From Salipiger bermudensis HTCC2601 (GTDB lineage Bacteria > Pseudomonadota > Alphaproteobacteria > Rhodobacterales > Rhodobacteraceae): a stretch of DNA of 64,000 nt. The notes below the pieces were generated by a model. It was given only the letters and a program-made list of their open reading frames with translations. It did not search any database and had not been told where the DNA came from. The translations under genes were made by a program, and so were the position numbers. The stretch is from assembly GCF_000153725.1 (NCBI RefSeq), contig NZ_DS022278.1, positions 39,798 through 103,797 on the forward strand. Reading direction: 5' to 3'. Every line of letters begins with the position of its first letter. The stretch's first letter is position 1. Shown here one piece after another: positions 3,796 through 34,801 of this stretch.

Positions 3796-3840
3796 CTTAG
3801 ATGTCTATGTTTTTTGCCGCGCTTCAAGAGATAGCTAGGT
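3796..3840 (-). promoter_or_regulatory. MarR-type operator region upstream of universal stress protein
   Basis: The 12-mer TTAGATGTCTAT lies at 3797-3808, with perfect core inverted repeat TAGA-TG-TCTA. A weaker copy, AGATAGCTA, lies at about 3829-3839. Both match the motif found at other promoters of the island. The nearest start codon is 3750 on the minus strand. Confidence 0.6.
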
Positions 3841-3883
3841 CGCGATAACCGCCAGACATACTGCGTGCCGTTCAAGCATGAAA

Positions 3884-3914
3884 GAGGCCACCCGGATGTT
3901 CTCCGGGCAGCCTC
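3884..3914 (-). terminator. Probable intrinsic terminator of the amidohydrolase operon
   Basis: GAGGC and GCCTC arms enclose an inner CCGGA/TCCGG stem, forming a long hairpin about 50 bp beyond the amidohydrolase stop. On the minus strand it is followed by a short TTTC run. It separates this operon from the Usp gene. Confidence 0.55.
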
Positions 3915-3965
3915 GCAGTGATCCGTATATGCGTGTCCTGTTGAAGACGGACGACGAGAACGGCG

Positions 3966-5204
3966 TCAACCTTTGGCGTTTGCCTCCAGTTTCCACTCGG
4001 ACATAACTGGGTCAAGATTGAACAGTTTCTGCGCGTTTCCACCTAGAATGCTCCGCTTGGCCTTCTCGTCCAAGAACGGAAGGTCATAGATCGTGCTCGG
4101 AAGATCCATATCCCAATGCGGATAGTCGGACGAATAGAGCAACTGCGATTCTGCGTTTATCATCTTGAAGGTGACTTCCAAGGCTTCGCGGTTGTCCACC
4201 AGCTCCATCGGCTGCGTAGAGTAGTACATCTCACGCATGTAATCGCTGGGTTTTTTCTTCAAGAGCGGAGCATCGGACGTACGCATCATGTACTCGTTGT
4301 CCAGCCGTTGCATCAGGAAAGGAACCCAAGCCAGACCACTTTCGATCCACATGGTTTTCAGCTTTGGAAAACGCTCGGGCATGCCGTTCATAACCCAGTT
4401 GGTCATGTGGATGATGTTACAGAAGCTGAAACCAAGCGCGTGAACTGAGATAAACTTGTTCAGCTGTGCCAACGAGGTGTCGGCCCAGTGATAAGCCGCG
4501 TGGAAGCCAAGAGGCATTCCATGCTCTTCCAGTTTGGCATAAATACGCATGTTTGCGCTGTCATGCACTGGCCGCTTGAGATACCCAGTCGAAAGGAACC
4601 CAACGACGCCTTTCTTTTCGGCGAACTCGTCAATCATCTTCTCGGCTTCGTGCGGCTCGTTCATGGGCAGATAGACCATGGATACGAGGCGATTGTCTTC
4701 TTCAAGAATGCGCTCGCTCAGCCAACGGTTATAGGCGCGGGCCATTGCCACCTCGACCTCGACTTGGGGGTGCGTTGCCAACAACAGCATTGGGGTTGGG
4801 AAAAGGCACGCCATATCCGTACCCATCGCGTCCATCCAGCGCCGTGCCAAAGTGATGTCGCGGTGTGGTTCTTCGGGGACAATTTCCTTGTTCCGACCCG
4901 CATAGCGCGTCACGCGCCCAGCCATGTCCTGCGAACCGATCGCCTGCGGAATAAGGCCGGCGCGGCCAACGTTACCGGCTGACAAGCCAAGATGGCGCAT
5001 CACCGGGTCGTCCATGTATTGCAGGATTTCCGGCAAGGCCTCAGTCTCATAGTGGTGGCTGTCCACATCGCAAATGAAGAAGTCTTTGTAATTACGGTCT
5101 TCCGCTTGCTTACGTGCGTTCTTCAGCAGCTTGCTGGTGTTAAATTCCTGTATCGCCGGATCGTTATCCGAGCTGTAGTTCATCGTGTTGCCCGTCAAAG
5201 ACAT
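3966..5204 (-). CDS. Amidohydrolase-family (amidohydrolase_2 / ACMSD-like) metal-dependent hydrolase or decarboxylase
   Basis: A 412-aa TIM-barrel amidohydrolase. Candidate metal ligands are DVDSHHYE near the N-terminus, GFHAAYHW mid-protein and SSDYPHWD near the C-terminus. This pattern is shared by ACMSD/gamma-resorcylate decarboxylases and by related hydrolases, so C-C cleavage and hydrolysis are both possible. The ATG at 5204 follows a GGGGAGAGAG ribosome site. It is the last gene of an operon with a small unknown protein and a Rieske ferredoxin, ending at the terminator at 3884-3914. The promoter carries the island operator, so the substrate is probably an aromatic acid or a ring-cleavage product; this is inference. 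Confidence 0.75.
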   Translation of the reverse strand: MSLTGNTMNYSSDNDPAIQEFNTSKLLKNARKQAEDRNYKDFFICDVDSHHYETEALPEILQYMDDPVMRHLGLSAGNVGRAGLIPQAIGSQDMAGRVTRYAGRNKEIVPEEPHRDITLARRWMDAMGTDMACLFPTPMLLLATHPQVEVEVAMARAYNRWLSERILEEDNRLVSMVYLPMNEPHEAEKMIDEFAEKKGVVGFLSTGYLKRPVHDSANMRIYAKLEEHGMPLGFHAAYHWADTSLAQLNKFISVHALGFSFCNIIHMTNWVMNGMPERFPKLKTMWIESGLAWVPFLMQRLDNEYMMRTSDAPLLKKKPSDYMREMYYSTQPMELVDNREALEVTFKMINAESQLLYSSDYPHWDMDLPSTIYDLPFLDEKAKRSILGGNAQKLFNLDPVMSEWKLEANAKG

Positions 5205-5224
5205 TTTATCTCTCTCCCCTCGTG

Positions 5225-5524
5225 TTACGGATTCAGCGTCTGCCACATGCCCAACTCGAACACCGCCATATCGGCGGCATCGAGAATGCCGGTCGCGGCG
5301 ATGGCGACAGCTGTCGCCGAGACATCGTTGTCTCGTGGGAATGCGGGCAAGCCGTCATTGGTTTCGCGAAGTTTCGCATATGCGGTCACAGCGTGTGAAA
5401 GCAGCGCCTGAAGTTGCTCGGCGCGCAGGCCACTGCTTTCGGGGTTGCGCAGTGCATTCAGGACAGCATCGACCGATGCCTCCAGAGCAGGAGCTTCAGC
5501 GGCTATCTGGTCAAACTTCGACAT
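5225..5524 (-). CDS. Small hypothetical protein between ferredoxin and amidohydrolase
   Basis: A 99-aa soluble, mostly helical, Ala-rich acidic protein that I do not recognise. The chosen start (MSKFDQ, 5524) overlaps the end of the Rieske ferredoxin gene by 14 bp, and the stop is about 20 bp before the amidohydrolase start, so the three genes look translationally coupled. There are no Cys-pair motifs, membrane segment or signal peptide. It may be a subunit or accessory factor of the amidohydrolase or its redox partner, but the sequence itself shows no function. Confidence 0.6.
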   Translation of the reverse strand: MSKFDQIAAEAPALEASVDAVLNALRNPESSGLRAEQLQALLSHAVTAYAKLRETNDGLPAFPRDNDVSATAVAIAATGILDAADMAVFELGMWQTLNP

Positions 5525-5876
5525 AGACCTCACCTCCTCTTTCCACCACGTTGTAACGTTTCATTTTGTACTTTGGATCGCCAACGGCTTCGCCCGTCGC
5601 AATCTTGAATTCCCAGCCATGCCACGGGCAAACGAAATGCAGTTCGTCTTCGTTGAAGGTCTGCCGGAGCGCGCGCTGCTGGTCGTCGAGTTCGACGCAG
5701 ACCTGCGGCATCTTTAGGCCTTCGCATACCGGGCCACCTTGGTGCGGACACACGTTCTTATATGCAACGATGTCTCCTTTGTGCCGAATGACCCCGATCT
5801 CGACCCCGTCGACCTCGCAAATCTTTGCCGTCTTGTCGCTCAAGTCCGACACCGCACATAGCAATCTTTCTGGCAT
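5511..5876 (-). CDS. Rieske-type [2Fe-2S] ferredoxin
   Basis: A 121-aa single-domain Rieske ferredoxin. Cluster ligands are CPHQGG (about residue 45) and CPWHGWEF (about residue 84), with the two Cys-X-His motifs separated by a somewhat long insert. Such proteins carry electrons from a flavin reductase to a Rieske oxygenase. The ATG at 5876 is preceded by an excellent GGAGGAGC site. The phthalate dioxygenase encoded nearby normally needs only its own FMN/[2Fe-2S] reductase, so this ferredoxin may serve another oxygenase or replace one. It heads the operon with the small protein and the amidohydrolase. Confidence 0.85.
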   Translation of the reverse strand: MPERLLCAVSDLSDKTAKICEVDGVEIGVIRHKGDIVAYKNVCPHQGGPVCEGLKMPQVCVELDDQQRALRQTFNEDELHFVCPWHGWEFKIATGEAVGDPKYKMKRYNVVERGGEVYVEV

Positions 5877-5911: not shown

Positions 5912-5975
5912 AGTTAGTAAGATTGCCTTACTATAAGAGTGGCTTTAGAATTGTCAAGAAATAAGACATCTAAAT
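5912..5975. promoter_or_regulatory. Divergent promoter/operator region, ferredoxin operon and marR
   Basis: On the minus strand TTGACA (5952-5957) and TATAGT are spaced 16 bp, a near-consensus sigma-70 promoter for the ferredoxin operon. Just upstream of the -35, TTAGATGTCTTA (complement of 5963-5974) matches the island operator. Just past the -10 is another inverted repeat, GTAAG-N5-CTTAC. This arrangement suggests that the divergent MarR gene controls both directions. Confidence 0.6.
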
Positions 5976-5991
5976 TAGGGGGGCGCAAATC

Positions 5992-6444
5992 GTGCCGCAA
6001 TCACCTTCTAGGAAACGTGGTCTTGGGGCGTCGCTCCGCCTGGCGCATCATCTTTATGGTAAGCTGCTGCAGGAGCAGTTGCGCGAAACCGGGCTCAGCA
6101 TGGCGCAGTACATTCATCTCCGGTGCCTGAGAGAGGAAGGCAAACTAAAACAATCCGAGCTTTCCGGGTTGCTGGGCATCGAAAAGGCGTCATCTACACG
6201 CGTACTGGACGAGCTCGAAAAGCGAGATCTTATCACGCGTAACCGCAGCCAGTCCGACCGGCGCGTGGTTCATGTCGACCTGACTGACACAGGCCTTCGA
6301 AGGATCGATGGCGCAATGAAATCTGCGCGTCTCGCGGCAGATCACGCCTCGGCGGGATTTGAACCCGACGAGTTGGGTCGCCTTTTCGCTGCGATGGACA
6401 AGCTTCTGGATAATCTCGCAAGCGTGTGTTGCCAGTCCCGCTAA
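5992..6444 (+). CDS. MarR-family transcriptional regulator
   Basis: A 150-aa MarR repressor with winged helix-turn-helix (LKQSELSGLLGIEKASSTRV), wing (RSQSDRRVVHVDLT) and dimerisation helices at both ends. It starts at a GTG. It is divergent from the ferredoxin operon, and the intergenic region holds two inverted repeats. MarR proteins release DNA on binding small phenolic or aromatic acids or CoA thioesters. This is one of two candidates for the repressor that reads the 12-bp operator repeated across the island; the other is at 18104-18619. The stop overlaps the convergent EamA gene by 4 bp. Confidence 0.85.
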   Translation: MPQSPSRKRGLGASLRLAHHLYGKLLQEQLRETGLSMAQYIHLRCLREEGKLKQSELSGLLGIEKASSTRVLDELEKRDLITRNRSQSDRRVVHVDLTDTGLRRIDGAMKSARLAADHASAGFEPDELGRLFAAMDKLLDNLASVCCQSR

Positions 6445-7860: not shown

Positions 7861-8853
7861 TTAAAGGCTGTAGGCTTCTAGGGTCGAGGGATGGAACAGT
7901 TCTTCGATCTCCACCCGGCGCGGCGACAGTCCCTGACTCGCGTGGTAATCCAAAAACTTGTTCAGGACATGGGCGTTGCCGCCGACGCCATAGCTCCAGG
8001 GGTCGTCACCCATTAGCGCATGCACGCGGTTGAGATTATCCTCGACGAAGGGCATCGTTACTTTCGTTGCAGAGGTGTCCGACAGGGCCTCTTCTGCTAT
8101 TAGCTTCGATTGCGTGAACGCCTTGAGCAGGGCGGCGGGTAGGAACGGGTATTCCTCGGCGAGGCTGCGGCGCACCCCAAGAACATGCATGATCGGAAAG
8201 ATCCGGGTCTTTTCGAAATAGGCTTCGGCCGTAGCGATGCTGTCTGCAAAAAGCCGACCTACGTGCGGATGCCGCTCGGCGAAACAACGCGGCCAACGCG
8301 GGCCGACGAAGCCGTCGATCTCACCGGCTTCGAGCATGCCATTCAACGTGCTGCCGACCGGCGCCTCTTCCATGCGGATATCGCCGGGTAACTGAACCTT
8401 GATCTTTTCGGGCCGGCCCGGCGTATCCATACCGCCGCGCACCCAGATGATGTCGGAGGGTTTGACACCGTATTCCTCTTCGAGAATGCCGCGCACCCAG
8501 ACATTGGCGGACAGCTGGTATTCGGCGATCCCAATGCGCTTGCCCCTCAGATCCTGAGGCGTTTCGATTCCTTTGTCGGTTCGAATGTAGACAGAAGTGT
8601 GACGGAACGCCCGGCTCAGAAAGACCGGGATCGCGACATAGTGCGGATTTCCGCGGGCGACCGAGATCGAATAGGAGGACAACGAAATTTCGCTGATATC
8701 GAAAGCTTCGTGGCGGAACGCCCGGAAGAACATTTCCTCTGGGGACAGTAGCATGGGCACGGGATCGACACCGTCTATCTGCACTCTTCCATCCACAATG
8801 GCACGCGTCCGGTCATAATTTCCCATGGCAAGGGATAGTTTGAGATTGCTCAT
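7861..8853 (-). CDS. pht5: 4,5-dihydroxyphthalate decarboxylase
   Basis: A 330-aa protein of the Pht5 family, which has a periplasmic-binding-protein-like fold but acts in the cytoplasm and has no signal peptide. Pht5 removes one carboxylate from 4,5-dihydroxyphthalate to give protocatechuate. Supporting segments are the opening LKLSLAMGNYDRTRAI, EMFFRAFRHEAFDISEISLS and GKRIGIAEYQLSANVWVRG, all characteristic of this group. Its start overlaps the end of the dehydrogenase gene by 4 bp, placing it directly after the previous pathway step. A plain ABC substrate-binding role is unlikely because no transporter genes adjoin it and there is no export signal. Confidence 0.85.
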   Translation of the reverse strand: MSNLKLSLAMGNYDRTRAIVDGRVQIDGVDPVPMLLSPEEMFFRAFRHEAFDISEISLSSYSISVARGNPHYVAIPVFLSRAFRHTSVYIRTDKGIETPQDLRGKRIGIAEYQLSANVWVRGILEEEYGVKPSDIIWVRGGMDTPGRPEKIKVQLPGDIRMEEAPVGSTLNGMLEAGEIDGFVGPRWPRCFAERHPHVGRLFADSIATAEAYFEKTRIFPIMHVLGVRRSLAEEYPFLPAALLKAFTQSKLIAEEALSDTSATKVTMPFVEDNLNRVHALMGDDPWSYGVGGNAHVLNKFLDYHASQGLSPRRVEIEELFHPSTLEAYSL

Positions 8854-10037
8854 CCAGTTTGTTCCTCCTCATTTGTTTTGCATTGTTGCCGCAGGTCGAC
8901 AGGTTGGCCGGTCGAGGCGGACTGCAGGATCGCATGGCAAACCTCCAGGCTTGCCAGACCCCACGCGCCCGTCTGGACGGGGGCCTTGTTCTGGCGGACA
9001 GCGGCTACCAGTGCATCGTTCACGGTTCTACGTGGCGCGGGCCCGAATGTCACTTCGATGAAGCCACGCTCGGTGTCACCAAATACTTCAACTCCGTCCG
9101 GAGTCAGCTTTAGGTCGGCACGGTCGCAAAGCGCGATGACTGGGCCAAAATGCTCGTTGTGCTTTGCGTCGACCGTCTTACCGCTGCCGAATGTGCGCGT
9201 CGTCTTGAGGCGCGCCTCGTCATCGGGATCGAGGTCCATCAGCGCCCGCCTTGCATCGCCATAGGCGCCGGCGAGTTTTCGCTGCCCCAGCTCTCCGACG
9301 TCGTTCATCCAAATGTCGCTATCGAAATGGGCATAGCCCGAATAGGTGAGATTGGCGACGCATCCACCCTCAAAGTTCATCAGCGCCGTAAAGGCGCCTT
9401 CTGTTGGACGCTTTGGATCCCATGCCCCGGTCATGGCATAAATCTTCTCTCCCATGCCGCCCGCAAGCCGTCGGACCACGTCGATCTGGTGGATGGCCTG
9501 GCTGAACAGCACCCCTCCTCCTTCTTCGGTGCGCAGCTCCTCCGGGCGTCGGGGACGATACAGGAAGTCAGTGTAGTTAAGGGCCTGGATCATTCTCAGC
9601 TGGCCGAACTTGCCGCTCGCGATCAACTGCGCGGCCAGCTCGACCGGCGGATCGAAACTGTGGCTGGGCCCAACGATCAGGTGAACCCCCGCCTCGTTCG
9701 CGGCGGCGACCATGGTCTCGGCGTCTTCCATCGAGATCGCGAGCGGCTTTTCCACGAGAATGTGCTTTCCAGCGCGCGCCGCGGCCAGAACGTGATCTAC
9801 ATGCATTTGGTGCGGGGTGGCGATGTAGATCGCTTCCACAGATGGATCGGCGCATAGTTCCTCGACAGTCGGATAGGCGACACCGCCGTATTGCTCTTCG
9901 AATGCGGCCCGGCTTTCCGCCCTCGGCGCGGCCGCGGCCGTGAGCTTGACGCGTGCGTCGGCATCAAAGGTGGGGACCATCAGCATGAAAGCCCGCCCCA
10001 ATCCCGCAACTCCGAGGCGGACGGGATCAGAGGTCAA
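8850..10037 (-). CDS. pht4: Phthalate 4,5-dihydrodiol dehydrogenase (Gfo/Idh/MocA family)
   Basis: This encodes 395 aa if translation starts at the TTG at 10037, 10 bp inside the reductase gene; an upstream in-frame start at 10070 would add a poor 11-residue extension. The Rossmann motif GVAGLGRAF is at the start and the family EKP motif (HILVEKPLA) is near residue 95. The family oxidises cis-4,5-dihydro-4,5-dihydroxyphthalate to 4,5-dihydroxyphthalate with NAD(P)+. Neighbours encode the preceding enzyme (reductase of the dioxygenase) and the following one (Pht5), which supports the assignment over a sugar dehydrogenase. Confidence 0.8.
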   Translation of the reverse strand: MTSDPVRLGVAGLGRAFMLMVPTFDADARVKLTAAAAPRAESRAAFEEQYGGVAYPTVEELCADPSVEAIYIATPHQMHVDHVLAAARAGKHILVEKPLAISMEDAETMVAAANEAGVHLIVGPSHSFDPPVELAAQLIASGKFGQLRMIQALNYTDFLYRPRRPEELRTEEGGGVLFSQAIHQIDVVRRLAGGMGEKIYAMTGAWDPKRPTEGAFTALMNFEGGCVANLTYSGYAHFDSDIWMNDVGELGQRKLAGAYGDARRALMDLDPDDEARLKTTRTFGSGKTVDAKHNEHFGPVIALCDRADLKLTPDGVEVFGDTERGFIEVTFGPAPRRTVNDALVAAVRQNKAPVQTGAWGLASLEVCHAILQSASTGQPVDLRQQCKTNEEEQTG

Positions 10038-10965
10038 GAACCAGCCTCCCCGATAGCGCGCGCGATACACAAATCATTATATGGTCGCTTTTTTCCTCTT
10101 CCATAAGCACCATGTCGCGATGGTCAGCTTCCCCTTCGAGGAGGCGGATCTTGCAGGTGCCGCATGTGCCACTTTCACAGGAGCTGGACGTTGCGAATCC
10201 GGCGTCACGCAATGCCTCCAAGATCGAACGATCTTCGGGCACCGTGACGGTTTCGCTACTTTTTTTCAGCTCCACTTCGAAAGAGACATCGTCTTGGCGC
10301 ACCACATCGACGGGCTTGAAATCCTCGAAGTGAACTCGCCCCTCCGGCCAGTGCCCGGAAACGGCCTTGATTTCATCCATCAGCGGTTTCGGACCACAAC
10401 AGAAGACGTGAGTGGCACGGGGCGTGACGAGATCGTCCCAGAAATCGTAGACTGCATCCGGAGCGCCGCCGTCATGGTGCACAATGATCCGGCCATCGAA
10501 ATCTCTCATCAGTTCATCCAGATAGGCCGATTCCTCCGGACTGCGGCTGACGTAGATGATTCTGAGCATCTTGCCCTTCTTGTCGAGATACCGTGCCATC
10601 GACAGAATCGGCGTGATCCCGATACCGCCGGCGATGAGCAGGTACTTCTGAACATCGGTTAGCGGGAAATCGTTTTCCGGGAATTCGACTGTCAACTCGG
10701 ACCCGACGGTCGCCTGTTCGTGCATCGACGCGGAGCCCCCACGCGAATTCGGTTCTCTTTTGATCGCGACAACAAATTCCTTTGGGTCGCTGCCATCGTT
10801 GATCAGTGAATAGCGACGCATCGCTCCGGACGGAGTTTCCAAGGTGATGTGAGCACCAGGATCGAAACTAGGGAGCACATCGGCCCCAACCGGCACCAGG
10901 GTGAATTCGGCGATGCTCGGGGTCAAGTCACGCCGTTTCTCGACGCGCATCTTGATATTCTCCAT
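10027..10965 (-). CDS. pht2: Phthalate 4,5-dioxygenase reductase component
   Basis: A 312-aa reductase of the phthalate dioxygenase reductase class. In order it has a flavin (FMN) barrel (RRYSLINDGSD), an NADH-binding domain (LLIAGGIGITPILSMA, then FCCGPKPLMDEI), and a C-terminal plant-type [2Fe-2S] domain with ligands in CESGTCGTC and a later Cys (IMICVSRA). It passes electrons from NADH to the Rieske oxygenase encoded at 12365-13645. A GGAGG site precedes the ATG at 10965. It is the first gene of the five-gene minus operon, with a TTGACA promoter carrying the MarR-type operator at 11001-11026. Confidence 0.9.
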   Translation of the reverse strand: MENIKMRVEKRRDLTPSIAEFTLVPVGADVLPSFDPGAHITLETPSGAMRRYSLINDGSDPKEFVVAIKREPNSRGGSASMHEQATVGSELTVEFPENDFPLTDVQKYLLIAGGIGITPILSMARYLDKKGKMLRIIYVSRSPEESAYLDELMRDFDGRIIVHHDGGAPDAVYDFWDDLVTPRATHVFCCGPKPLMDEIKAVSGHWPEGRVHFEDFKPVDVVRQDDVSFEVELKKSSETVTVPEDRSILEALRDAGFATSSSCESGTCGTCKIRLLEGEADHRDMVLMEEEKSDHIMICVSRALSGRLVLDL

Positions 10966-11000: not shown

Positions 11001-11026
11001 TTAGATAGCTAAGTTATGTGTGTCAA
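11001..11026 (-). promoter_or_regulatory. Promoter and MarR-type operator of the pht2-pht4-pht5 operon
   Basis: On the minus strand TTGACA (complement of 11021-11026) is followed after 8 bp by the operator TTAGCTATCTAA (complement of 11001-11012), an inverted repeat that would overlap the spacer and -10. The first start codon is 36 bp downstream. Confidence 0.65.
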
Positions 11027-11094: not shown

Positions 11095-12237
11095 TTACCG
11101 TCGAATTTCGACGTTGAAATCAGAGACCGCAGACACGGATCTTGCGCCCACAAAGGTCATGGTCCTCGTCATCTCCTCTTCAAGGATCGAAAGCGCCCGT
11201 GACACGCCCGCCTCGCCTTGCGCCGCCAAGCCATAGAGCGGCGCGCGACCCAGCAGAATGCCCTTCGCACCCAAGGCGAGGGCTTTCACGATGTCACTGC
11301 CGCGACGAATGCCGCCGTCCAGCAGAACCGGAAACTTCCGATCAAGAGCCGCGATGATATCTGCGAGTACGTCGATGGTGGCAGGAGCGCCATCAAGCTG
11401 ACGGCCACCATGGTTCGAGACGACGATTCCATCCACACCGGCGCGTTGCGCGTCAATCGCATCTTCTGGGCACATGATACCCTTGATCAGCAGCGGGCCT
11501 TTCCATTTCTCCCGAATGCGGCGAACATCTCCCCAAGAAAACTCCGGGTTCCGCTGAGATCGGGTAAACTCGGCCAGTTCTCTGTCGCTCGCGCTGTTTC
11601 CGACAAAGTCCAAGAGGTTCTCAAGTCTGGGACGGTGCGGCCCGAGCCATACGGAGGTCAGCCAAGCAGGATGCAGAAGCCCATCGAGAACAGTCCGAGG
11701 GCCAATGCGGATTTCGTGGGCGAAGCCGTGCCGCAGATCACGTTCGCGCTTGCCGCCCACGAGTGAATCGACAGTCAGTACCAGAGCCGAGTAACCGGCC
11801 GCCTGTGCCCGGTCGATCAGCGCATCAGCGAATGCGCCCTTCCCCCACGGATAAAGCTGGAACCAGAGGGGACCCTTGCTCCTCCGCGCGATCTCTTCCA
11901 GCGTCGTGTTCGAGGCGGTCGAAACCGTGAACCCGACCCCGGCTCGTTCGGCCGCAGCGGCGAGGTGCAGATCTCCCTGGGGCCAGTAGAGGCCGTTCAG
12001 CCCTGTCGGCCCTATGAAAAACGGCTTCGAGTATGTTTCCCCGAACAGCTCCAAGGTGAGATCGACGCTCCCCCCTTTGAGGATTCGCGGCGTGAGAACG
12101 ATATTCGTGAAGGAACTGCGATTGTGCCGCAGCGTCACCTCCGATTCCGCGCCCCCATCCAAATAATCGAACACCACCCGTGGCAGGCGACGCCGTGCCT
12201 GCGCCCGCAAGTCTTCGATATTGATTGCTGTCGTCAT
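11095..12237 (-). CDS. FMN-dependent alpha-hydroxyacid dehydrogenase/oxidase (mandelate/lactate dehydrogenase family)
   Basis: A 380-aa FMN enzyme of the (S)-2-hydroxyacid oxidase family. Diagnostic segments are FDYLDGGAESEVTLRHN, PTGLNGLYWPQGDL, WFQLYPWG and the active-site SNHGGRQLDGAPA with its catalytic His and substrate-binding Arg. These enzymes oxidise mandelate, lactate or glycolate to the 2-oxoacid. It sits between the two phthalate dioxygenase subunit genes and probably shares a transcript with the oxygenase gene at 12365. With the ThDP decarboxylase (20052) and aldehyde dehydrogenase (22932) it resembles the mandelate pathway, which suggests an aromatic 2-hydroxyacid substrate; this is inference. 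Confidence 0.8.
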   Translation of the reverse strand: MTTAINIEDLRAQARRRLPRVVFDYLDGGAESEVTLRHNRSSFTNIVLTPRILKGGSVDLTLELFGETYSKPFFIGPTGLNGLYWPQGDLHLAAAAERAGVGFTVSTASNTTLEEIARRSKGPLWFQLYPWGKGAFADALIDRAQAAGYSALVLTVDSLVGGKRERDLRHGFAHEIRIGPRTVLDGLLHPAWLTSVWLGPHRPRLENLLDFVGNSASDRELAEFTRSQRNPEFSWGDVRRIREKWKGPLLIKGIMCPEDAIDAQRAGVDGIVVSNHGGRQLDGAPATIDVLADIIAALDRKFPVLLDGGIRRGSDIVKALALGAKGILLGRAPLYGLAAQGEAGVSRALSILEEEMTRTMTFVGARSVSAVSDFNVEIRR

Positions 12238-12364: not shown

Positions 12365-13645
12365 TTATTCCGCCGCTTCCGTCTTGCTCGACGTGTCCAC
12401 CAGTGTTCGCCAATCGACGTCCTTAGGATACACTCCCTCGTGAGAGGCGATTACCCTTTGCGGAATCTTCGACTCGGTGCCGATTGCCTGGCCACCTTCG
12501 GCGACTTTCTTTGCCGCATCGGCCATGAGGCGGCGGAACTCGACAATCGCCAGGTCGGAGGCCCCAAGAATGTCCGTGTGACGCTGTACGCGGCTACCCA
12601 TCGAAACCCACATCACAATATCTTCGTTCGGAATGCCGTCCACGCCGGTAAAGTGGCCCTCTTTCATCCTTTCTCGGTCCTGCTTGAAGTCGTTCTCCAA
12701 CGTCCGGAGAGAGCGCCATTTGTGGTCCACGTCCTCACCCGGTACGGCATGGGCAAACTTGCGCCACTCTTCAGTGGAGGGAACGTTCGGTCCGTCGAAG
12801 GCTATGAAGTGAAACGCTGTCTCATCGTCATTGATCGGCACGATGACGCTGGCGACCCGGTAGTTGTTGTTCGGCGGAATCAGCGAATAATAGGGCGCGA
12901 TAAATTCGGTGATCCGGAGATAGTTGTGCGTCTGAGCGTTTTTGATCGGCTTACGGATCGCCGCGTAATGGAAACCGTAGCTCGTGGTTTCAGTCTGCAT
13001 ACGCGGAGATTTGTCTGTCGATGGGCGGTACCATGATTTGTCGTCCGCCGCGGCGCCCTCGACCCGTGCCGGAACCATATTCGAGGAATGGAGCGATGAT
13101 GAATGCGCGCTATCGATCTGGCCCTCGTGAATCTGCGCCCAGTTGGCGGGCACGCGAATCTTCAGGATCGAAACTGGGGTGTCTTCGGTTGGCGCAAAGG
13201 CCGGCGGCTGGAACTCGGGCATATCATCTTTCTCGCCGAGCCAAGCCCAGACGAAGCCGCCCCACTCCCGCACGGGGTAGGAACGATGTTTGACCTTGTC
13301 CATCAATGGACTGCCTTCCGGCTCTGAAGACATTGCGACGACATTGCCTTCAACATCCATCTTCCAGCCGTGATAGAGGCAGCGCAGCCCACATTCCTCG
13401 TTACGGCCATAGACCAGAGAGGCCTTTCTGTGGGGGCAAAGCTCATCCAGCATTCCCAGACGACCCTTGGTATCCCGGAACGCGACATAGCTTTCGCCGA
13501 GAACTTCGACTCGAAGCGGTTTGCCGTCCGACTCTTCAACCTCTTCGATCAGGCATACAGGCGTCCAATGCTGACGCATAAGTCGCGCCATCGGGGCATC
13601 CCCCGTTACGCGTGTAAGCAGTTCATTCTCTTCGGGTGTAAGCAT
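12365..13645 (-). CDS. pht3: Phthalate 4,5-dioxygenase oxygenase component (Rieske)
   Basis: A 426-aa Rieske non-haem iron oxygenase of the phthalate 4,5-dioxygenase group. The N-terminal Rieske centre has CPHRKA (about residue 71) and CLYHGW (about residue 90). The mononuclear iron site follows as DSAHSSSLH near residues 178-186. The opening MLTPEENELLTRVTGDAPM is typical of this homo-oligomeric, alpha-only class, which pairs with a reductase such as that at 10027. It converts phthalate to the cis-4,5-dihydrodiol. A GGAG site precedes the ATG, and the promoter at 13710-13736 has the shared operator. Related demethylases or isophthalate enzymes cannot be excluded from sequence alone, but the neighbours favour phthalate. 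Confidence 0.85.
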   Translation of the reverse strand: MLTPEENELLTRVTGDAPMARLMRQHWTPVCLIEEVEESDGKPLRVEVLGESYVAFRDTKGRLGMLDELCPHRKASLVYGRNEECGLRCLYHGWKMDVEGNVVAMSSEPEGSPLMDKVKHRSYPVREWGGFVWAWLGEKDDMPEFQPPAFAPTEDTPVSILKIRVPANWAQIHEGQIDSAHSSSLHSSNMVPARVEGAAADDKSWYRPSTDKSPRMQTETTSYGFHYAAIRKPIKNAQTHNYLRITEFIAPYYSLIPPNNNYRVASVIVPINDDETAFHFIAFDGPNVPSTEEWRKFAHAVPGEDVDHKWRSLRTLENDFKQDRERMKEGHFTGVDGIPNEDIVMWVSMGSRVQRHTDILGASDLAIVEFRRLMADAAKKVAEGGQAIGTESKIPQRVIASHEGVYPKDVDWRTLVDTSSKTEAAE

Positions 13646-13709: not shown

Positions 13710-13736
13710 CTTAGCTCTCTAAGTTTTATCTGTCAA
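13710..13736 (-). promoter_or_regulatory. Promoter and MarR-type operator of the oxygenase operon
   Basis: On the minus strand TTGACA (complement of 13731-13736) is followed after 8 bp by CTTAGAGAGCTAAG (complement of 13710-13723), a perfect 5-bp-arm inverted repeat with 4-bp centre. TAAGAA lies 17 bp from the -35 as a possible -10, so the repressor would cover the -10. Confidence 0.65.
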
Positions 13737-16803: not shown

Positions 16804-17793
16804 TTAATTGAGCAGACCCAGTTCTTTGTAGGCACGCTCCGCACCAGGATGGAACGGCAGCGTGGTCTGCGACGTCAGAAGTTCCGGTGTGAGCGCCTGC
16901 ATCGCCTTATGCACGCCGCGGATCTCGTCGATATTGGACGCGATGCTCTTTGCGAGCATGTAGCCAGTTTCTTCCGGCAGTACATCGGAAGTGATTACCA
17001 TCGCACCCAGTGCGAGCGTGACGACATCTTCGGTCTGGTTCTTGTAGCTGTCGGCTGGAATTGTGAACGTGCCGGTTCCGAAACGCTCGTTGGTCGCAGC
17101 GATGATGTTTTCGGGAACGCTGAGCAACACGACGTGATTGCCCTCGTCAACTTTACGGAACGACGAATGTCCGATGAAAATGCCGTTGATCACCATATCG
17201 GTGCGGCCGTCTGCAATCAGATCTGCTTGCTGTGACGAACCACCACGGACAAGCACGCCGCCATTGGACTCGATCGTGGCTTCGTCGTAGCCCGCCTCTT
17301 CGAGCATGAAGGTCGCGATGTTGGCGACGATGTTCCCGGCATTGTTGTTCGCAACACGGATCGCCGCGCCGGACGTCGCGAGGTCGTCAATGCTGTCGAT
17401 GCCATATTCTTCGGCAAGAGACTTCTTGATGAAGAAGTGCATCGGCGCCCAGTTGTACATGTAGCCGATGGCTTGAAGGTTCTCGATCGGCGCGTCAAAC
17501 GGTTCGTCCCCTGCGAGGGCCAGCTTGATCTCGGCATCATGTGCCATCCCCAGGTCGGTCCGTTCACGGCCCAGAAGGCCGATGTTCGCAAAGCCACCAC
17601 CGGTGGCCTGATAAGTCACCACGCCGCTCGGGTCATCCGCCTTGACGGCACGGTCAATACCAGCGCCCAGAAGCGACCAAAGCCCCGAGGGATTGCCGCC
17701 TGAAAGGGTCACATTAACGCTTTCTGCGGAAGCAGCGCTCGCAAGAACCGCGAGGCCGATCGATGCGGCAACGGCTTTGATTGGAAATTTCAT
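16804..17793 (-). CDS. TRAP transporter TAXI-family solute-binding protein
   Basis: A 329-aa secreted protein. MKFPIKAVAASIGLAVLAS with an ASAAS-AES cleavage region is a clear signal peptide. The mature part has TAXI features: LSGGNPSGLWSLLGAGIDRA at the start, VTYQATGGGFANI, and DLIADGRTDMVINGIFIG. It captures the substrate in the periplasm and delivers it to the fused permease downstream. The ATG at 17793 is chosen because the longer frame (17820) lacks a ribosome site and would spoil the signal peptide. Two back-to-back operators lie 20-45 bp upstream. Confidence 0.88.
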   Translation of the reverse strand: MKFPIKAVAASIGLAVLASAASAESVNVTLSGGNPSGLWSLLGAGIDRAVKADDPSGVVTYQATGGGFANIGLLGRERTDLGMAHDAEIKLALAGDEPFDAPIENLQAIGYMYNWAPMHFFIKKSLAEEYGIDSIDDLATSGAAIRVANNNAGNIVANIATFMLEEAGYDEATIESNGGVLVRGGSSQQADLIADGRTDMVINGIFIGHSSFRKVDEGNHVVLLSVPENIIAATNERFGTGTFTIPADSYKNQTEDVVTLALGAMVITSDVLPEETGYMLAKSIASNIDEIRGVHKAMQALTPELLTSQTTLPFHPGAERAYKELGLLN

Positions 17794-17813
17794 GTCTTCC
17801 TCCCTGTTTTCAG

Positions 17814-17837
17814 TAGACATCTAATATTAGATATCTA
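17814..17837 (-). promoter_or_regulatory. Double MarR-type operator upstream of the TRAP operon
   Basis: TAGACATCTAAT (17814-17825) and ATTAGATATCTA (17826-17837) abut, giving two facing copies of the island motif (TTAGATGTCTA on one strand, TTAGATATCTA on the other). They end about 20 bp before the receptor start codon. Paired sites may give cooperative repression of uptake. Confidence 0.6.
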
Positions 17838-18103
17838 TCTTTAATGCTAGTAGTCTATCCACTCGCACCCGTCAACCCTGATTGAAGTCGAGACTATTGT
17901 TCAGCGAAAGCCACTCAAGTCATAGTTCCTGACGCGGAACACGCCGAAGCCGTGTGTCCGGCGTAGGTGCTTTGTCGTGACGCACTATCAACCCGTGGAG
18001 CCCCGGAGCAGCAGGCCTCAAACCCCCGCCCCCATAGGCTCTCTATGTCCGCAACCGCCATTGAATGGCCCGCGCCGGACACTCGGCACGCATGGCTCGC
18101 GAT

Positions 18104-21953: not shown

Positions 21954-22805
21954 TCAGAAATCCAAACCGAAATCGACGGTCCCCGCCGAATGGGTCAAAG
22001 CACCGGAGGAAATATAATCCACATTTGCCGATGCGATTTCGCGCAAACGGCCAAGGGTCACATTCCCGCTGGCTTCTGTCTTCGCCCGCCCGTCAATGCG
22101 CTTTACGGCTTCGGCCATGTCTTCGGTCGACATATTGTCAAACATGATGACATCTGCGCCCCCGGTCTGAAGCACCTCGTCCAACTGATGCAAACCGTCG
22201 ATCTCGATCTCGACCACGACCATGTGACCCACATTTCGCTGAACGGCTTCCAACACCTGTTTGATGCCACCAGCCGCTGCGATATGGTTGTCCTTGATCA
22301 GGATTGCATCGGACAGGGAAAACCGGTGATTGTGGCCGCCGCCATGCAAAATCGCGAGTTTCTCGACAAGCTTCAGCCCCGGTGTGGTTTTGCGTGTACA
22401 GGTGATACGTGTCTTGGTACCCGCAAGTTCCTGCACATAGGACGCTGTCAAAGTTGCCGTCCCGGACAACCGCCCGGCAAAGTTCAGGGCAACACGCTCT
22501 GCGGCAAGGATCGACGCCGCCGATCCCTCTATACGCATCAAGGTATCGCCCGTTTTGCAGGCCGTACCATCCGCGACAACAGTCTCGACAATAAGATCGG
22601 GATCAATCAGCCGAAACGCCAGAGAGGCCACCTGCATCCCAGAAACAACCGCGTCCTGCCGTGCACGCATTTGCGCCTTGTAGCGCGTGCCTTCAGGCAG
22701 AACGGAACGGGTTGTCACGTCGCCTGCTGCACCCAGGTCCTCCACAATGGCGTTCCGAACCATAGGTTCGAGGATGATATCGGGGACGTTCGCAACATTG
22801 CTCAT
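21954..22805 (-). CDS. nadC: Nicotinate-nucleotide pyrophosphorylase (quinolinate phosphoribosyltransferase)
   Basis: A 283-aa NadC. Visible family segments are EDLGAAGDVTTRSVLPEG at the N-terminus, AERVALNFAGRLSGTAT, TRKTTPGLKLVEKLA with substrate-binding Arg/Lys residues, HGGGHNHRFSLSDAILIKDN and a C-terminal TEASGNV barrel end. The enzyme makes nicotinate mononucleotide from quinolinate and PRPP, releasing CO2. nadA and nadB are not nearby. It follows the aldehyde dehydrogenase gene on the same strand after 126 bp and is probably under the same MarR-type operator. Quinolinate and phthalate are close structural analogues, so an extra or induced copy in a phthalate island is notable. Confidence 0.9.
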   Translation of the reverse strand: MSNVANVPDIILEPMVRNAIVEDLGAAGDVTTRSVLPEGTRYKAQMRARQDAVVSGMQVASLAFRLIDPDLIVETVVADGTACKTGDTLMRIEGSAASILAAERVALNFAGRLSGTATLTASYVQELAGTKTRITCTRKTTPGLKLVEKLAILHGGGHNHRFSLSDAILIKDNHIAAAGGIKQVLEAVQRNVGHMVVVEIEIDGLHQLDEVLQTGGADVIMFDNMSTEDMAEAVKRIDGRAKTEASGNVTLGRLREIASANVDYISSGALTHSAGTVDFGLDF

Positions 22806-22931: not shown

Positions 22932-24410
22932 TTACTGACCCGACAGATTGATATGCACATTCTTTTCATGGGTGAAGGAAATCAGCTCGCCAATACCTTC
23001 TTCGCGCCCGATACCCGATTGTTTGACCCCACCGAACGGGGCACCAAGGAAATGCCGGCCAACTTCGTTAACCCAAACAAACCCGGCCTCGACACGAGCA
23101 GCCGTGCGATGAGCCGTAACCAAGTCCCGAGTCCAAATTGCGCAGGTCAGCCCCAGCTCAAGTGCGTTGACCTCGTTCAGCATGGAATCTTCGTCCGACC
23201 ATTTGCGGACCGCCAGAACTGGCCCGAAAATCTCTTCGCGAGCGATACGCATCTGCGGCGTTACATCCGCAAAAATCGTCGGCGCGATGAAGCTTCCCTG
23301 TGCCAGCGCACCTTCGGTCACCGCATGGCCGCCGGTTACGGCACGCGCGCCTTCGCTCATGGCGGATTCGATGAAGTCCATGATCCGATCGAACTGTGTC
23401 CGGCTGACGATCGCCCCCATCGTGGTCTCCGGCTCTGTCGGAATGCCTGGCTTGTACCGTTCGACAGCCGCTTTGAGATGTGAGATGACCGCATCGTGGA
23501 TGTCTACATGCAAGAAAGCGCGGCTCGTCGATCCGCAAGATTGCCCGCACCAGCCGAAATTCATGCCGCCGACGATCGCATCGGCGATCTTCTTCGGATC
23601 GCTGTCCGGATAGGCGATCAGCGCGTTCTTGCCGCCGAGTTCGAGCAGCACTGGTTTGACGGTGTCGCTCGCGCTGCGCATCACCGCCCGGCCCGCGGGT
23701 ACGGAGCCGATGAGTGTGACCTTGGCGACGTCGGGATGTTCGGCCAGCCCAGCTCCTGCCTCGACGCCGCCCGGCAGAACATTGAACGTGCCTTTAGGCA
23801 GCAGGCCATCGATGAGCTCCGCCAGCCGCAGCGAAGACAACGGAGCCTGAACCGGCGGCTTGATGATGACGGCATTGCCTGCGGCCAGAGGCGCTGCCAT
23901 CTTTCCGCCGCAGAACATGAACGGATGATTAAAGGCAAGAATCCTTGCAACCACGCCCATCGGCTGGCGTAGGGTCATGTTGATGCGCTCTGGTCCCATA
24001 GGGATCGTATCACCCTTCATTTCGGTCACAAGACCGGCGAAAAACTCCATCTGCGCTGCCGCAATCGCGGCGTCGCCGCGCATTTCAGTATAGGGGTTGC
24101 CACAGTTTGCAGCGTCCATCATCGCCAGTTCATCGCCATGCTTTCGCAAGAGATTTGCGATTTCCTTCAGGATACGTGCGCGTTCCAGCGGCACAACATC
24201 CCGCCATACCTCGAACCCTTCTTTCGCTGCCGCAACCGCCGCATCGACATCGGCGCGACTTGCCGTCGCAACCGACCCGATCCGCTCGCCGGTTCCTGGG
24301 TTGAAAGTGTCTTCGTACTTTCCCTCTAGTGGCGGCACCCATGCGCCGCCGTAGTAGAGATGGGCTGGTTCTTGAAGAGAGAGCTTCGCGTCTAGTTTCA
24401 GATTTTCCAT
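22932..24410 (-). CDS. Aldehyde dehydrogenase (NAD(P)+-dependent)
   Basis: A 492-aa aldehyde dehydrogenase. The order is an NAD-binding domain with NHPFMFCGGKMAAPLAAGN, then ELGGKNALIAYP with the general-base Glu, then the catalytic Cys in GQSCGSTSR, and EEIFGPVLAVRKW. Substrate class resembles betaine/benzaldehyde-type enzymes, which does not fix the substrate. In this island it could oxidise an aromatic aldehyde made by the ThDP decarboxylase. The promoter upstream carries a perfect copy of the island operator. nadC lies downstream in the same direction. Confidence 0.85.
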   Translation of the reverse strand: MENLKLDAKLSLQEPAHLYYGGAWVPPLEGKYEDTFNPGTGERIGSVATASRADVDAAVAAAKEGFEVWRDVVPLERARILKEIANLLRKHGDELAMMDAANCGNPYTEMRGDAAIAAAQMEFFAGLVTEMKGDTIPMGPERINMTLRQPMGVVARILAFNHPFMFCGGKMAAPLAAGNAVIIKPPVQAPLSSLRLAELIDGLLPKGTFNVLPGGVEAGAGLAEHPDVAKVTLIGSVPAGRAVMRSASDTVKPVLLELGGKNALIAYPDSDPKKIADAIVGGMNFGWCGQSCGSTSRAFLHVDIHDAVISHLKAAVERYKPGIPTEPETTMGAIVSRTQFDRIMDFIESAMSEGARAVTGGHAVTEGALAQGSFIAPTIFADVTPQMRIAREEIFGPVLAVRKWSDEDSMLNEVNALELGLTCAIWTRDLVTAHRTAARVEAGFVWVNEVGRHFLGAPFGGVKQSGIGREEGIGELISFTHEKNVHINLSGQ

Positions 24411-24443: not shown

Positions 24444-24466
24444 CTTAGACTTCTAAATAATGTCAA
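24444..24466 (-). promoter_or_regulatory. Promoter and MarR-type operator of the aldehyde dehydrogenase-nadC unit
   Basis: On the minus strand TTGACA (complement of 24461-24466) is followed after 4 bp by TTAGAAGTCTAA, a perfect inverted repeat with 5-bp arms. TTATTA lies 17 bp from the -35. The start codon is 34 bp beyond the operator. Confidence 0.65.
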
Positions 24467-28385: not shown

Positions 28386-28439
28386 TGTCGCGTTGCCCTT
28401 AAATCTGAGACACGACGCGTTCGGGGATATTTTTTGCCC

Positions 28440-29800: not shown

Positions 29801-29804
29801 CAGG

Positions 29805-29870
29805 TGTCGCGTTGCCCTTAAATCTGAGACACGACGCGTTCGGGGATATTTTTTGCCCTTAATTATGAGA
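29805..29870. repeat. Transposon right end: terminal repeat and second transposase site
   Basis: TGTCGCGTTGCCCTTAAA starts at 29805 and a second TTGCCCTTAATTATGAGA lies at 29853-29870, overlapping the tniQ stop. The right end thus has two sites and the left end four, the kind of asymmetry seen in Tn7-like elements. The same arrangement occurs at 28386-28451 and, diverged, at 37184. Confidence 0.7.
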
Positions 29871-33179: not shown

Positions 33180-33196
33180 GAAGCTGCGAACCCTGT

Positions 33197-33310
33197 CTCA
33201 GGTTTAAGGGCAAAAATATCGGATTTAAAGGCAAAATATCATATTTAAGGGCAAAGCAAGGCCGTTGATTTCGTTGGATTTCTCATCTCACAATTAAGGG
33301 CTACGCGACA
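33197..33310. repeat. Transposon left end: terminal repeat and internal sites
   Basis: Reading inward from 33310 on the minus strand, repeats with core GCCYTTAA occur at about 33301-33286, 33254-33238, 33236-33220 and 33215-33197. Two of them are flanked by TATGATA or CCGATA. They are candidate TniA-binding sites, and the tniA promoter must lie among them. Confidence 0.7.
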
Positions 33311-33474
33311 GGCATGTTCATGCCGCTGCCCGGCCGGGCACATGGCTTGGCGAGATGCTGACGCGCAAGCCGCCGATGCTGGTGCGGGTCGCGCTGGCGA
33401 ACAAAATGGCGCGGATCGTCTGGGCGCTGATGGCCCGAGGCGGCGCCTACCAGTCTCCGACCGCTGCGGCGTAA
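33311..33474 (+). pseudogene. IS110-family transposase, C-terminal remnant
   Basis: The last ~54 codons of an IS110/IS1111-type transposase (KPPMLVRVALANKMARIVW, then WALMARGGAYQSP) are open from the transposon junction to a stop at 33472. The same C-terminal pattern is seen in the remnant at 36654-37183. The 33475-33715 stretch has no gene and probably contains that element's end. Confidence 0.65.
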
Positions 33475-33715
33475 GCCGTCACTGGTCGCGAGGACGTCGG
33501 AGCGGAAGAGGGCAAGGAGACGTTTGGCGCACGGTCGTGAGACGGGATCGGGAGAACCAGAGCGCAACAGAGTGCCATCGAGCACGCGGCTTTGATCTGG
33601 ACCCGACCTGCGAACACCATACGGGCCCGCGGCGTGATGATGGCCGCAACAGAGGCCGGATACATGTCAGCACCCGACACCGCGCGAAACTGATCCAGAA
33701 ACCCTCTTGCGCAAG

Positions 33716-34773
33716 GGGCGGTTATACATGTTGCGCAAATGCTGTGAAGGTTTCACCTTGCGAATCCAGTCTGTTAGTCAGGCTGCATGAGCAGACCCAT
33801 ACCCCCGACCTACAAGACCAGGAACTGGCCAGCCTACAATGAAGCAGTCAAGCGCCGGGGCTCGCTGACGATCTGGTTTGACCCCGAGATGAGCTGGGAT
33901 GCCGCGCCGACAGGCAGGCGTGGCCGCCAGCAGACCTACAGCGATGCCGCTATCCAGACGTGCCTCTCGATGAAAGTGCTGTTCGGCATGGCGCTCCGGC
34001 AGACGACCGGGTTCGTCGAGAGCCTGCTACGGCTGGTCGGCCTGAACTGGACGGTGCCCGACTTCAGCACGCTATCTCGCCGCCAGAAGACCTTGGCCGT
34101 GAACATCCCCTACCGCGGCTCCAAGGGGCCGTTGCACCTGCTGATCGACAGCACCGGGATCAAGGTCGAAGGTGAAGGCGAGTGGCACGCACGCAAGCAT
34201 GGCGGCCCGAAACGGCGCGTCTGGCGCAAGCTCCACCTTGGGATCGATGAAGAAACGTTGGAGATCCGGGCCGTCGAAGTCACCGGGAGCCACATCGGTG
34301 ATGCGCCCATCCTACCCACCTTCTCGACCAAATCCCGCAGGACCAGGAAATCGGTAGCGTTACGGCTGATGGCGCCTACGACACGCGCAAATGCCACGAT
34401 GCGATTGCAGATCGCGGTGCCCATGCCGTCATCCCGCCCCGCAAGAACGCGAAGCCCTGGAAGACGATCACCGCCGGAGCCGTGGCGCGAAATGAGGCCC
34501 TGCGCGCGGCGAAATACCTGGGCCGCGCGCTCTGGCGACGATGGAGTGGATACCACCGCCGAAGCCGCGTCGAGACAAAGATGCATTGTATCAAGTTGCT
34601 GGGCCAGCGGCTCATGGCACGGGACTTCGATCGACAGGTCGCCGAACTCCAGGTCCGCATCGCCGTCCTGAACGGCTACACCGCGCTCGGAATACCCGTC
34701 ACGGAAGCTGTGGGATAAGTCCGTCCGGGGAAAGGGGAACCTCGGCCTTAAGCCGATTTGTGCATCAGAGCCC
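33716..34773 (+). mobile_element. IS5-family insertion sequence (inactivated)
   Basis: About 1.06 kb containing one transposase gene with a frameshift. The right end reads AAGCCGATTTGTGCATCAGAGCCC and a related ATGTTGCGCAAATGC occurs at the left. Boundaries are approximate. Its right edge abuts the -35 box of the downstream hydrolase gene. Confidence 0.6.
33787..34718 (+). pseudogene. IS5-family transposase, broken by a one-base deletion
   Basis: The first 177 or so codons encode a normal IS5 transposase N-terminus (LLIDSTGIKVEGEGEWHARK contains the first Asp). A missing G between 34317 and 34318 (CCCACC where CCCGACC restores the frame) shifts translation. The second half is readable in another frame from about 34320 to 34718, with the catalytic-Glu region WSGYHRRSRVETKMHCIKLL. 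Repairing that base would give a protein of about 310 aa, like that at 38995. Confidence 0.8.
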
Positions 34774-34801
34774 TTGACACTAATAATTAGCTATCTATGT
34801 T
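34774..34801 (+). promoter_or_regulatory. Promoter and MarR-type operator of the secreted hydrolase
   Basis: TTGACA (34774-34779) is followed after 7 bp by TTAGCTATCTAT (34787-34798), matching the pht operon operator TTAGCTATCTAA in 11 of 12 positions and in the same orientation and near-same spacing. TATGTT lies about 16 bp from the -35. Confidence 0.65.

Follow-up and report, generated by a model that had tools for sequence, protein, structure and literature searches.

Few plastic additives are as common as phthalate esters. The described control systems closest to the one considered here are MarR-type regulators of phthalate breakdown: one row of a table in PMC5031561 gives a MarR-type OphR, citing the thesis of Han (2008), and passages of PMC6051330 name the MarR gene phtR in Sphingobium yanoikuyae SHJ as well as a quinolinate phosphoribosyltransferase gene, phtD, citing Chang and Zylstra 1999. 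The present study concerns a phthalate catabolic island at positions 2926-28000 of a 64,000-nucleotide stretch of Salipiger bermudensis HTCC2601 (contig NZ_DS022278.1, positions 39,798 to 103,797; contig C4 of the 5.48-Mb genome), hereafter called the window, together with a recurring 12-bp palindrome of the form TTAG-N4-CTAA. Like the OphR and PhtR clusters, as far as those are described in these sources, the island holds a MarR gene beside genes for a phthalate 4,5-dioxygenase, a dehydrogenase and a decarboxylase, and it shares with strain SHJ a quinolinate phosphoribosyltransferase gene. Homologues of this MarR protein (MarR2 below; 36-49% identical) lie beside such phthalate genes on plasmids of Sphingobium, Caballeronia, Polaromonas, Massilia and Pseudomonas luteola. 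The difference is that what is in print for OphR and PhtR amounts to a name or an annotation, whereas an operator, a regulon and a second regulator are proposed here; no printed operator for either protein was found in the openly licensed literature.

Other regulators of aromatic catabolism offer looser parallels. According to passages of PMC8222616, OphR of Rhodococcus sp. DK17 likewise regulates a phthalate operon, but it is of the IclR family and has the operator CGCGTACGCG. IphR of Comamonas sp. E6 is likewise described, in parts of PMC8222616 and PMC13040137, as a substrate-responsive repressor of a phthalate-isomer operon, but it is an IclR-family protein for isophthalate with the operator GTCTCATCAGAC (PMC8222616). 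CouR of Rhodococcus jostii RHA1 is, in the passages of PMC4737184 concerned, a MarR repressor as well, which acts on a cluster for aromatic catabolism and is released by a compound of the pathway; it differs in serving the p-hydroxycinnamate pathway and in having a CoA-thioester ligand, and it is likened to MarR2 by description only. Section 3.4 of a 2026 review (PMC13040137) treats IphR, TphR, biosensors for terephthalate and a XylS engineered for o-phthalate, and it describes no biosensor built from a natural o-phthalate regulator. The consensus of the palindrome studied here, TTAGATATCTAA, turned up as a printed string in one openly licensed paper, on cyanobacterial engineering. The kind of system is ordinary; its operator, the reach of that operator and the split between two regulators appear new.

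The explanation offered is that TTAGATATCTAA-type palindromes serve as operators of one MarR-family repressor, MarR2, and that the second MarR protein of the island, MarR1, uses a different palindrome. Taken as a whole and judged from sequence, this is considered quite probable. In the window, TTAG-N4-CTAA occurs ten times with at most one mismatch, against 4.34 +/- 1.85 expected. Eight of these sites are promoter sites in the stretch 3797-34798 (Table 1), each 18-85 bp before a start codon; the other two (51619 and 62790) have a GC-rich interior and fall outside the top list of the weight matrix described below. The whole genome contains 54 such sites, and its three perfect ones (11001, 13711 and 24445) all fall in the same stretch. 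Eight of the 54 are thus packed into 31 kb, where the rest of the genome predicts 0.26 (Poisson 4e-10, for a stretch picked post hoc). A weight matrix trained on 155 sites from loci less than 90% identical scored the eight at 15.1-21.4, and they are exactly the top eight of the window, the next 12-mer reaching 12.4. Moreover, they outscore the 42 listed of the 46 one-mismatch sites elsewhere in the genome (best 14.3). Two-mismatch genome sites were scored solely inside the window, plus two extra ones that turned up when A or T was required at either end of the site (scores 11.8 and 5.5).

A matrix scan had been named beforehand as a check in a first-pass annotation of this DNA, and the independently trained matrix bore it out. 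That annotation had listed nine inverted-repeat sites, eight of which hold, with the numbering corrected to 5962, 17813 and 17827 (from 5963, 17814 and 17826); its ninth and weak site at 18681 (18680 in our numbering) has two mismatches and a score of 6.4 and is not supported. The TTGACA boxes that it placed 4-8 bp before the sites at 11001, 13711, 24445 and 34787 were recovered with spacings of 8, 8, 4 and 7 bp. The next-best matrix match in the window, ATAGCTATCTCA at 50103-50114, has two mismatches and probably arose by chance because it lies inside a long open reading frame.

The sites are strongly conserved within the family. Dioxygenase orthologues of at least 60% identity were present in 21 of 394 family genomes, and a site with at most one mismatch stood just upstream of the gene in 20 of them (18 perfect, two with one mismatch); in the exception, G263, the dioxygenase gene follows TRAP genes and sites precede the gene of the TAXI-type solute-binding protein. 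Around dioxygenase paralogues of 34-37% identity, none of nine loci had a site beside the gene, and one had a one-mismatch site more than 1 kb off. Upstream regions were then compared over 110 loci (L048, L125-L132, L134, L135 and short loci being set aside), with matches that began no later than residue 25, an identity of 45% or more except for four genes, at least 150 nt of upstream sequence and dereplication by shared 8-mers. The site was found in 55/56 dioxygenase upstreams (52 perfect) and 56/56 reductase upstreams (54 perfect), two sets whose counts overlap since both are often one divergent region, as well as in 5/5 for the universal stress protein (Usp). The fractions were 19/33 for TAXI, 15/29 for aldehyde dehydrogenase (AldDH) and 6/33 for the thiamine-diphosphate (ThDP) enzyme. 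None was seen before the operon-internal genes for the dehydrogenase (0/55) and the decarboxylase (0/56), before the TRAP permease (0/40) or before pcaI (0/4), and a regulon including pcaIJF is not supported on this last count. Eleven permuted palindromes averaged 0.2 perfect matches in the dioxygenase and reductase sets. Furthermore, the N4 spacer, which was unused in site selection, converges on ATAT with 0.9-1.0 bit per position. By this measure of conservation, the TTAG-N4-CTAA site is under strong selection.

The association extends beyond the family. A phylum sample of 398 genomes yielded four out-of-family dioxygenase orthologues (58-62% identity), all four with a perfect site just upstream, and ten paralogue loci, none with a site near the gene. 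Each of the four orthologue genomes also encodes a strong MarR2 homologue (E 6e-39 to 5e-58), whose gene lies 1-10 kb away from that of the dioxygenase; in the eight paralogue genomes, MarR2 matches were absent or weaker (best 1.2e-22). Additionally, seven distant plasmid loci were fetched out of 28 records of less than 60% identity, from Pseudomonas luteola, Massilia, Variovorax, Polaromonas, Acidovorax, Caballeronia and Sphingobium, all with MarR2 homologues of the 36-49% mentioned above. Their 129 kb contain nine perfect sites, compared with 0-3 for each of eleven permuted palindromes. A dioxygenase of 53-61% identity is encoded in five of the seven: in Massilia, Polaromonas and Caballeronia, it or its gene run lies behind a perfect site, in P. 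luteola the site is a one-mismatch one, and none stands before the dioxygenase of Sphingobium. Two of the three perfect sites in the Sphingobium locus form an inverted duplicate pair. The Variovorax locus has one-mismatch sites only, and in the Acidovorax locus the site stands before a gene for citrate synthase.

A rival reading takes the motif for an AT-rich element of promoters or a trace of recent horizontal transfer instead of a repressor operator, given that transposon copies bracket the island and that near-identical islands occur in several genera. This is extremely improbable in view of the fact that the 12-mer is kept in dereplicated, distant clusters with dioxygenases down to about 58% identity, locus GC contents of 46-72% and varied gene orders, that palindromes of the same composition are rare in those clusters, and that the unselected spacer is itself conserved. 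A wider evolutionary reading is favoured with some reserve, as somewhat better than an even chance. The MarR2-TTAGATATCTAA pair would date from before the split of the Alpha-, Beta- and Gammaproteobacterial clusters and would have governed the aerobic catabolism of o-phthalate ever since, surviving reshuffled gene order, plasmid transfer and that whole range of GC content. It would have recruited extra genes, such as an extracellular ester hydrolase and nadC, through their gain of the 12-mer, and a second MarR protein with its own palindrome would have come with the Rieske-ferredoxin/amidohydrolase module.

Some loci of the wider sample carry further palindromes. Additional perfect operators occur at about 900-6640 in L205, L206 and L214 (Sneathiella and an uncultured alphaproteobacterium). 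In L205, the sole one of these loci with families tested, they stand before a run of enoyl-CoA hydratase, CoA-transferase and acyl-CoA dehydrogenase genes and before a DctP-type TRAP transporter, near phthalate genes; sites of this type suggest that other substrates are under the same control. Ten loci of dioxygenase paralogues with 34-38% identity (L242-L251) hold nine perfect TGAT-N4-ATCA sites in total, possibly the operator of a different regulator.

As to the protein that reads the sites, MarR2 is the candidate regulator by elimination of the others and by linkage, and TTAG-N4-CTAA is most likely its docking site. It matches the MarR family PF01047 (E 4.9e-10, 39.6 bits against a cut-off of 24.6), and its structure model has the MarR order of helices and wing with a mean pLDDT (predicted local distance difference test) of 84.5. 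Of the 394 family genomes, 23 have a MarR2 homologue, and 20 of these belong to the 21 that encode the dioxygenase; the gene is linked to those for the phthalate 4,5-dioxygenase, dehydrogenase and decarboxylase, as in OphR/PhtR-type regulators. Its recognition-helix region (EPT-H-A) is nearly invariant over 18 homologues and different in MarR1, the two proteins being 27% identical.

Binding of the sites by the IclR regulator (24467) or the LysR regulator (1821) was considered as well. The former lies just upstream of the 24445 site, and IclR proteins control many aromatic pathways, including that of phthalate in Rhodococcus (passages of PMC8222616). Nevertheless, an IclR protein of at least 40% identity is present in just 10 of 63 MarR2-scan loci with the dioxygenase, the pcaI promoter beside it lacks the site in all four upstreams, and the IclR motif groups in the relevant part of PMC8222616 look unlike TTAGATATCTAA. 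The LysR protein (at least 60%) is found on 9 of 16 plasmid records with MarR2 of at least 60%, and all nine are near-identical islands by their MarR genes. Neither protein is at all likely to be the owner of the sites.

MarR1 deserves more attention, since it is a MarR-family protein whose gene starts 18 bp behind a TTAG site. It could bind the TTAG-N4-CTAA sites itself or share them with MarR2. In addition, the 63 MarR2-scan loci with the dioxygenase all stop short of its expected place and hence are silent on its absence. Against this stands its narrow distribution: among 20 dioxygenase-encoding genomes of the family, four had MarR1 at 50% identity or more (2 of 18 searched whole, plus the loci of G330 and G347; G344, with a 6.5-kb contig, is excluded from the count), compared with 20 of 21 that have a site directly before the dioxygenase. 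Among the 16 plasmid records with MarR2, a MarR1 of at least 59% occurs in ten and none in six. The different recognition helices point the same way, and a role of MarR1 at the TTAG sites, alone or shared, is unlikely. The first-pass annotation had treated both MarR genes equally, which does not agree with MarR2 being present in 20 of 21 dioxygenase genomes of the family and in four of four outside. It had also placed each gene beside a site; MarR1 does start close to one (the 5962 site), and the weak site at 18681, near MarR2, is the unsupported one.

A second palindrome offers MarR1 a target of its own. The sequence TAGTAAGATTGCCTTACTA (TAGTAAG-N5-CTTACTA) has a single perfect copy in the genome, the next best having three mismatches. 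The ferredoxin promoter reads TTGACA-N16-TATAGT; this palindrome lies over its -10 box (TATAGT), and the TTAG site is found upstream of its -35 box. On a Thioclava nitratireducens plasmid (L133), which encodes MarR2 and a MarR1 of 59% identity, the palindrome is kept at 9449 as TAGTAAGATTGTCTTACTA in a similar promoter, with TTGACA and TATAGT 17 bp apart. The TTAG site is absent from this MarR1/ferredoxin promoter and kept in the rest of the cluster, which also speaks against MarR1 as the reader of TTAG sites. The simplest reading, drawn from one divergent comparison, is that MarR1 would control its own accessory module through TAGTAAG-N5-CTTACTA. Membership of the ferredoxin/amidohydrolase operon in the TTAG regulon is doubtful, because the TTAG site is upstream of the -35, the other palindrome sits on the -10, solely the latter is kept in Thioclava and just one of three dereplicated ferredoxin upstreams has the TTAG site. 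Thus, of the single regulon first proposed for this island, conservation upholds Usp, the reductase-dehydrogenase-decarboxylase run, the dioxygenase, the TRAP binding protein, AldDH-nadC and the hydrolase, and leaves the ferredoxin/amidohydrolase part in doubt; one main regulon plus a second regulator is probable on the sequence data.

MarR1 has decayed in two clusters: G161 (L101 3755-3865) and the second G229 cluster (L118 3345-3455) each contain a MarR1 remnant, with MarR2 and operators present. In L101, transposase-like sequence stands before the remnant, and the ferredoxin and amidohydrolase had no match in either L101 or L118.

With regard to mechanism, we infer that a MarR2 dimer would lie on the -35 and -10 boxes or in the space separating them, and near the start codon at the TAXI gene, where the sites are paired. 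So placed, it would keep RNA polymerase off the promoters of Usp and the dioxygenase, of the reductase-dehydrogenase-decarboxylase and AldDH-nadC runs, and of the genes for TRAP uptake and the secreted hydrolase. It may be released by phthalate or a compound formed early from it, which is the natural expectation for a catabolic MarR protein, and MarR1 would act on the palindrome at 5915-5933 over the ferredoxin/amidohydrolase promoter. A TTGACA-like box (at least 5/6) is present within 14 nt upstream of 84 of 206 sites, as against 27 of 206 in the shifted control; by gene, it precedes 46/74 reductase sites (spacers 5-8), 29/72 dioxygenase sites and 5/17 AldDH sites.

Several observations weigh against assigning the palindromes to MarR2 as repressor. 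The box is rare before TAXI sites (3/37) and absent before Usp sites (0/5). Sites are missing from 14/33 TAXI and 14/29 AldDH upstreams; in some loci (L176, L183, L185), these genes follow other genes in a run. In the seven plasmid loci, the one-mismatch count of 21 is inside the control range of 4-44. Genome G118 (84% complete) has the dioxygenase and a one-mismatch site, with no MarR2 found, and the MarR2 matches of G151 and G758 hold one stop in the aligned stretch. Moreover, 12 of the 17 MarR2-scan loci lacking the dioxygenase also lack a perfect site, and seven of those 12 (L171, L187, L203, L204, L208, L211 and L212) have no other island gene at the cut-offs used, so not every MarR2 homologue has an operator nearby. 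Perfect sites elsewhere are sometimes beside unrelated genes, for instance a glycosyltransferase gene in L236. Finally, the promoter of MarR2 itself is not enriched: a site with at most one mismatch occurs in 11 of 64 upstreams, equal to the best permuted control (11). A missing autoregulatory site is unusual for a MarR repressor, autoregulation being frequent in the family and not obligatory. The level of MarR2 is probably not set by an operator loop, since no enriched site exists at its promoter.

Among candidates examined singly, autoregulation of MarR2 through the 18681 site is rejected on its low score and the unenriched promoter, and the glycosyltransferase of L236 and the ApbA neighbour in L234 look like chance associations. 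An aldehyde dehydrogenase gene (L232) and a gene for an NMT1-like binding protein (L233), each behind a site, are plausible distant members.

The secreted hydrolase at 34868 lies apart from the island, and its membership in the MarR2 regulon, suggested from the first, gained support. A hydrolase homologue occurs in 7 of the 394 family genomes, six of which also have MarR2 (hypergeometric 1.4e-7, with genomes that are not independent because the island moves). In G128 and G330, whose copies are 76% identical, the gene lies behind a one-mismatch site that follows TTGACA by 9 bp; the G330 copy is on a different contig from the island. A one-mismatch site also stands before a second paralogue in G229 and before near-identical copies in G229 and G239. 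The hydrolase gene of G066 follows TRAP genes and has no site of its own, and in G216 neither MarR2 nor, in the fetched 3.2 kb around the hydrolase, a site was found. The protein matched neither the tannase models nor those of any other family: it had no Pfam match at 1e-3, no NCBIfam match at 1e-5 and no PDB sequence match. MHETase and feruloyl esterases were among the top matches of a fold search (best E 4.2e-3) made with a poor model (mean pLDDT 54.5). Together with the GCSGGG motif, these weak matches fit an ester hydrolase and are only a hint of one.

If MarR2 does act on the palindrome in this way, a repressor and a 12-bp operator usable across many bacteria would become available as a natural o-phthalate biosensor part. 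Additionally, regulon prediction in plastic-degrading marine bacteria would become mechanical, and the operator alone would flag new candidate phthalate-ester hydrolases such as the secreted protein at 34868.

Table 1. Genes and proposed operators of the window, in order of position; scores are those of the weight matrix.
Feature	Position	Strand	Basis or detail
Universal stress protein (Usp)	2926..3750	-	Pfam PF00582
Proposed Usp-promoter operator ATAGACATCTAA (coding strand)	3797..3808	-	score 18.2; 46 bp before ATG
Amidohydrolase, accessory module	3966..5204	-	Pfam PF04909
Rieske ferredoxin, accessory module	5511..5876	-	Pfam PF00355
Proposed MarR1 site, second operator TAGTAAGATTGCCTTACTA (TAGTAAG-N5-CTTACTA)	5915..5933		sole perfect genome copy; next best 3 mismatches
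Proposed operator TAAGACATCTAA between Rieske ferredoxin and MarR1	5962..5973		score 17.3; 18 bp before MarR1 start; upstream of ferredoxin -35
MarR1, MarR-family, proposed regulator of accessory module	5992..6444	+	Pfam PF01047, E 2.9e-16
4,5-Dihydroxyphthalate decarboxylase-like protein	7861..8853	-	weak NMT1-type match
Gfo/Idh/MocA dehydrogenase (dihydrodiol dehydrogenase by context)	8850..10070	-	Pfam PF01408
Ferredoxin reductase of dioxygenase	10027..10965	-	Pfam PF00111
Proposed perfect operator TTAGCTATCTAA, reductase	11001..11012	-	score 21.4; 8 bp after TTGACA, 35 bp before ATG
Flavin mononucleotide (FMN)-dependent alpha-hydroxy-acid dehydrogenase, downstream of dioxygenase	11095..12237	-	open reading frame
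Phthalate dioxygenase oxygenase subunit (Rieske, LigXa_C)	12365..13645	-	Pfam PF19301, PF00355
Proposed perfect operator TTAGAGAGCTAA, dioxygenase	13711..13722	-	score 16.5; 8 bp after TTGACA, 65 bp before ATG
TAXI-type TRAP solute-binding protein	16804..17793	-	NCBIfam TIGR02122
Proposed facing-pair operator TTAGATGTCTAC, TAXI	17813..17824	-	score 15.1; 19 bp before ATG
Proposed facing-pair operator ATAGATATCTAA, TAXI	17827..17838	-	score 21.1; 33 bp before ATG
MarR2, proposed operator-binding repressor (OphR/PhtR-like)	18104..18619	-	Pfam PF01047
nadC, quinolinate phosphoribosyltransferase, downstream of AldDH	21954..22805	-	NCBIfam TIGR00078
Aldehyde dehydrogenase (AldDH)	22932..24410	-	open reading frame; counterparts annotated aldehyde dehydrogenase family protein
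Proposed perfect operator TTAGAAGTCTAA, AldDH	24445..24456	-	score 17.9; 4 bp after TTGACA, 34 bp before ATG
Proposed operator TTAGCTATCTAT, secreted hydrolase	34787..34798	+	score 18.0; 7 bp after TTGACA, 69 bp before ATG
Secreted serine hydrolase, GCSGGG motif, weakly MHETase/feruloyl-esterase-like	34868..36307	+	motif, weak fold matches on poor model

The island comprises genes for a LigXa_C-type Rieske dioxygenase, its ferredoxin reductase, a Gfo/Idh/MocA dehydrogenase, a decarboxylase-like protein and TRAP uptake. These are accompanied by the series aldehyde dehydrogenase, nadC, ThDP enzyme and 2-hydroxyacid dehydrogenase, an IclR regulator, pcaIJF and the two MarR genes. The decarboxylase-like product has a 58% match in the Polaromonas locus L219, home of an annotated 4,5-dihydroxyphthalate decarboxylase gene, and the Salipiger profundus counterpart of the FMN-dependent enzyme is annotated as an alpha-hydroxy-acid oxidizing protein. 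The longest open reading frame of MarR2 extends to 18661, with the likely ATG at 18619. A near-identical island is present on a Salipiger profundus plasmid, where TniQ/TniB transposon genes adjoin it, and eight Phaeobacter plasmids carry both MarR genes at 97-98% identity, 12 kb apart. Close copies of the island were also found on contigs of Maritimibacter, Pelagimonas phthalicica, Tropicibacter and others. In the window, 99.8%-identical copies of one transposon end flank the island (1-933 and 32376-33310), and part of the right transposon copy is duplicated at 99.7% (28382-29807 and 29801-31227). At E 0.001, the genome yielded no nadC besides that of the island, and NadA had no match in the genome; a normal role of the enzyme in de novo NAD synthesis from aspartate is therefore unlikely. 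Quinolinate phosphoribosyltransferase genes also lie beside MarR2 homologues on the Massilia, Variovorax and Sphingobium plasmids.

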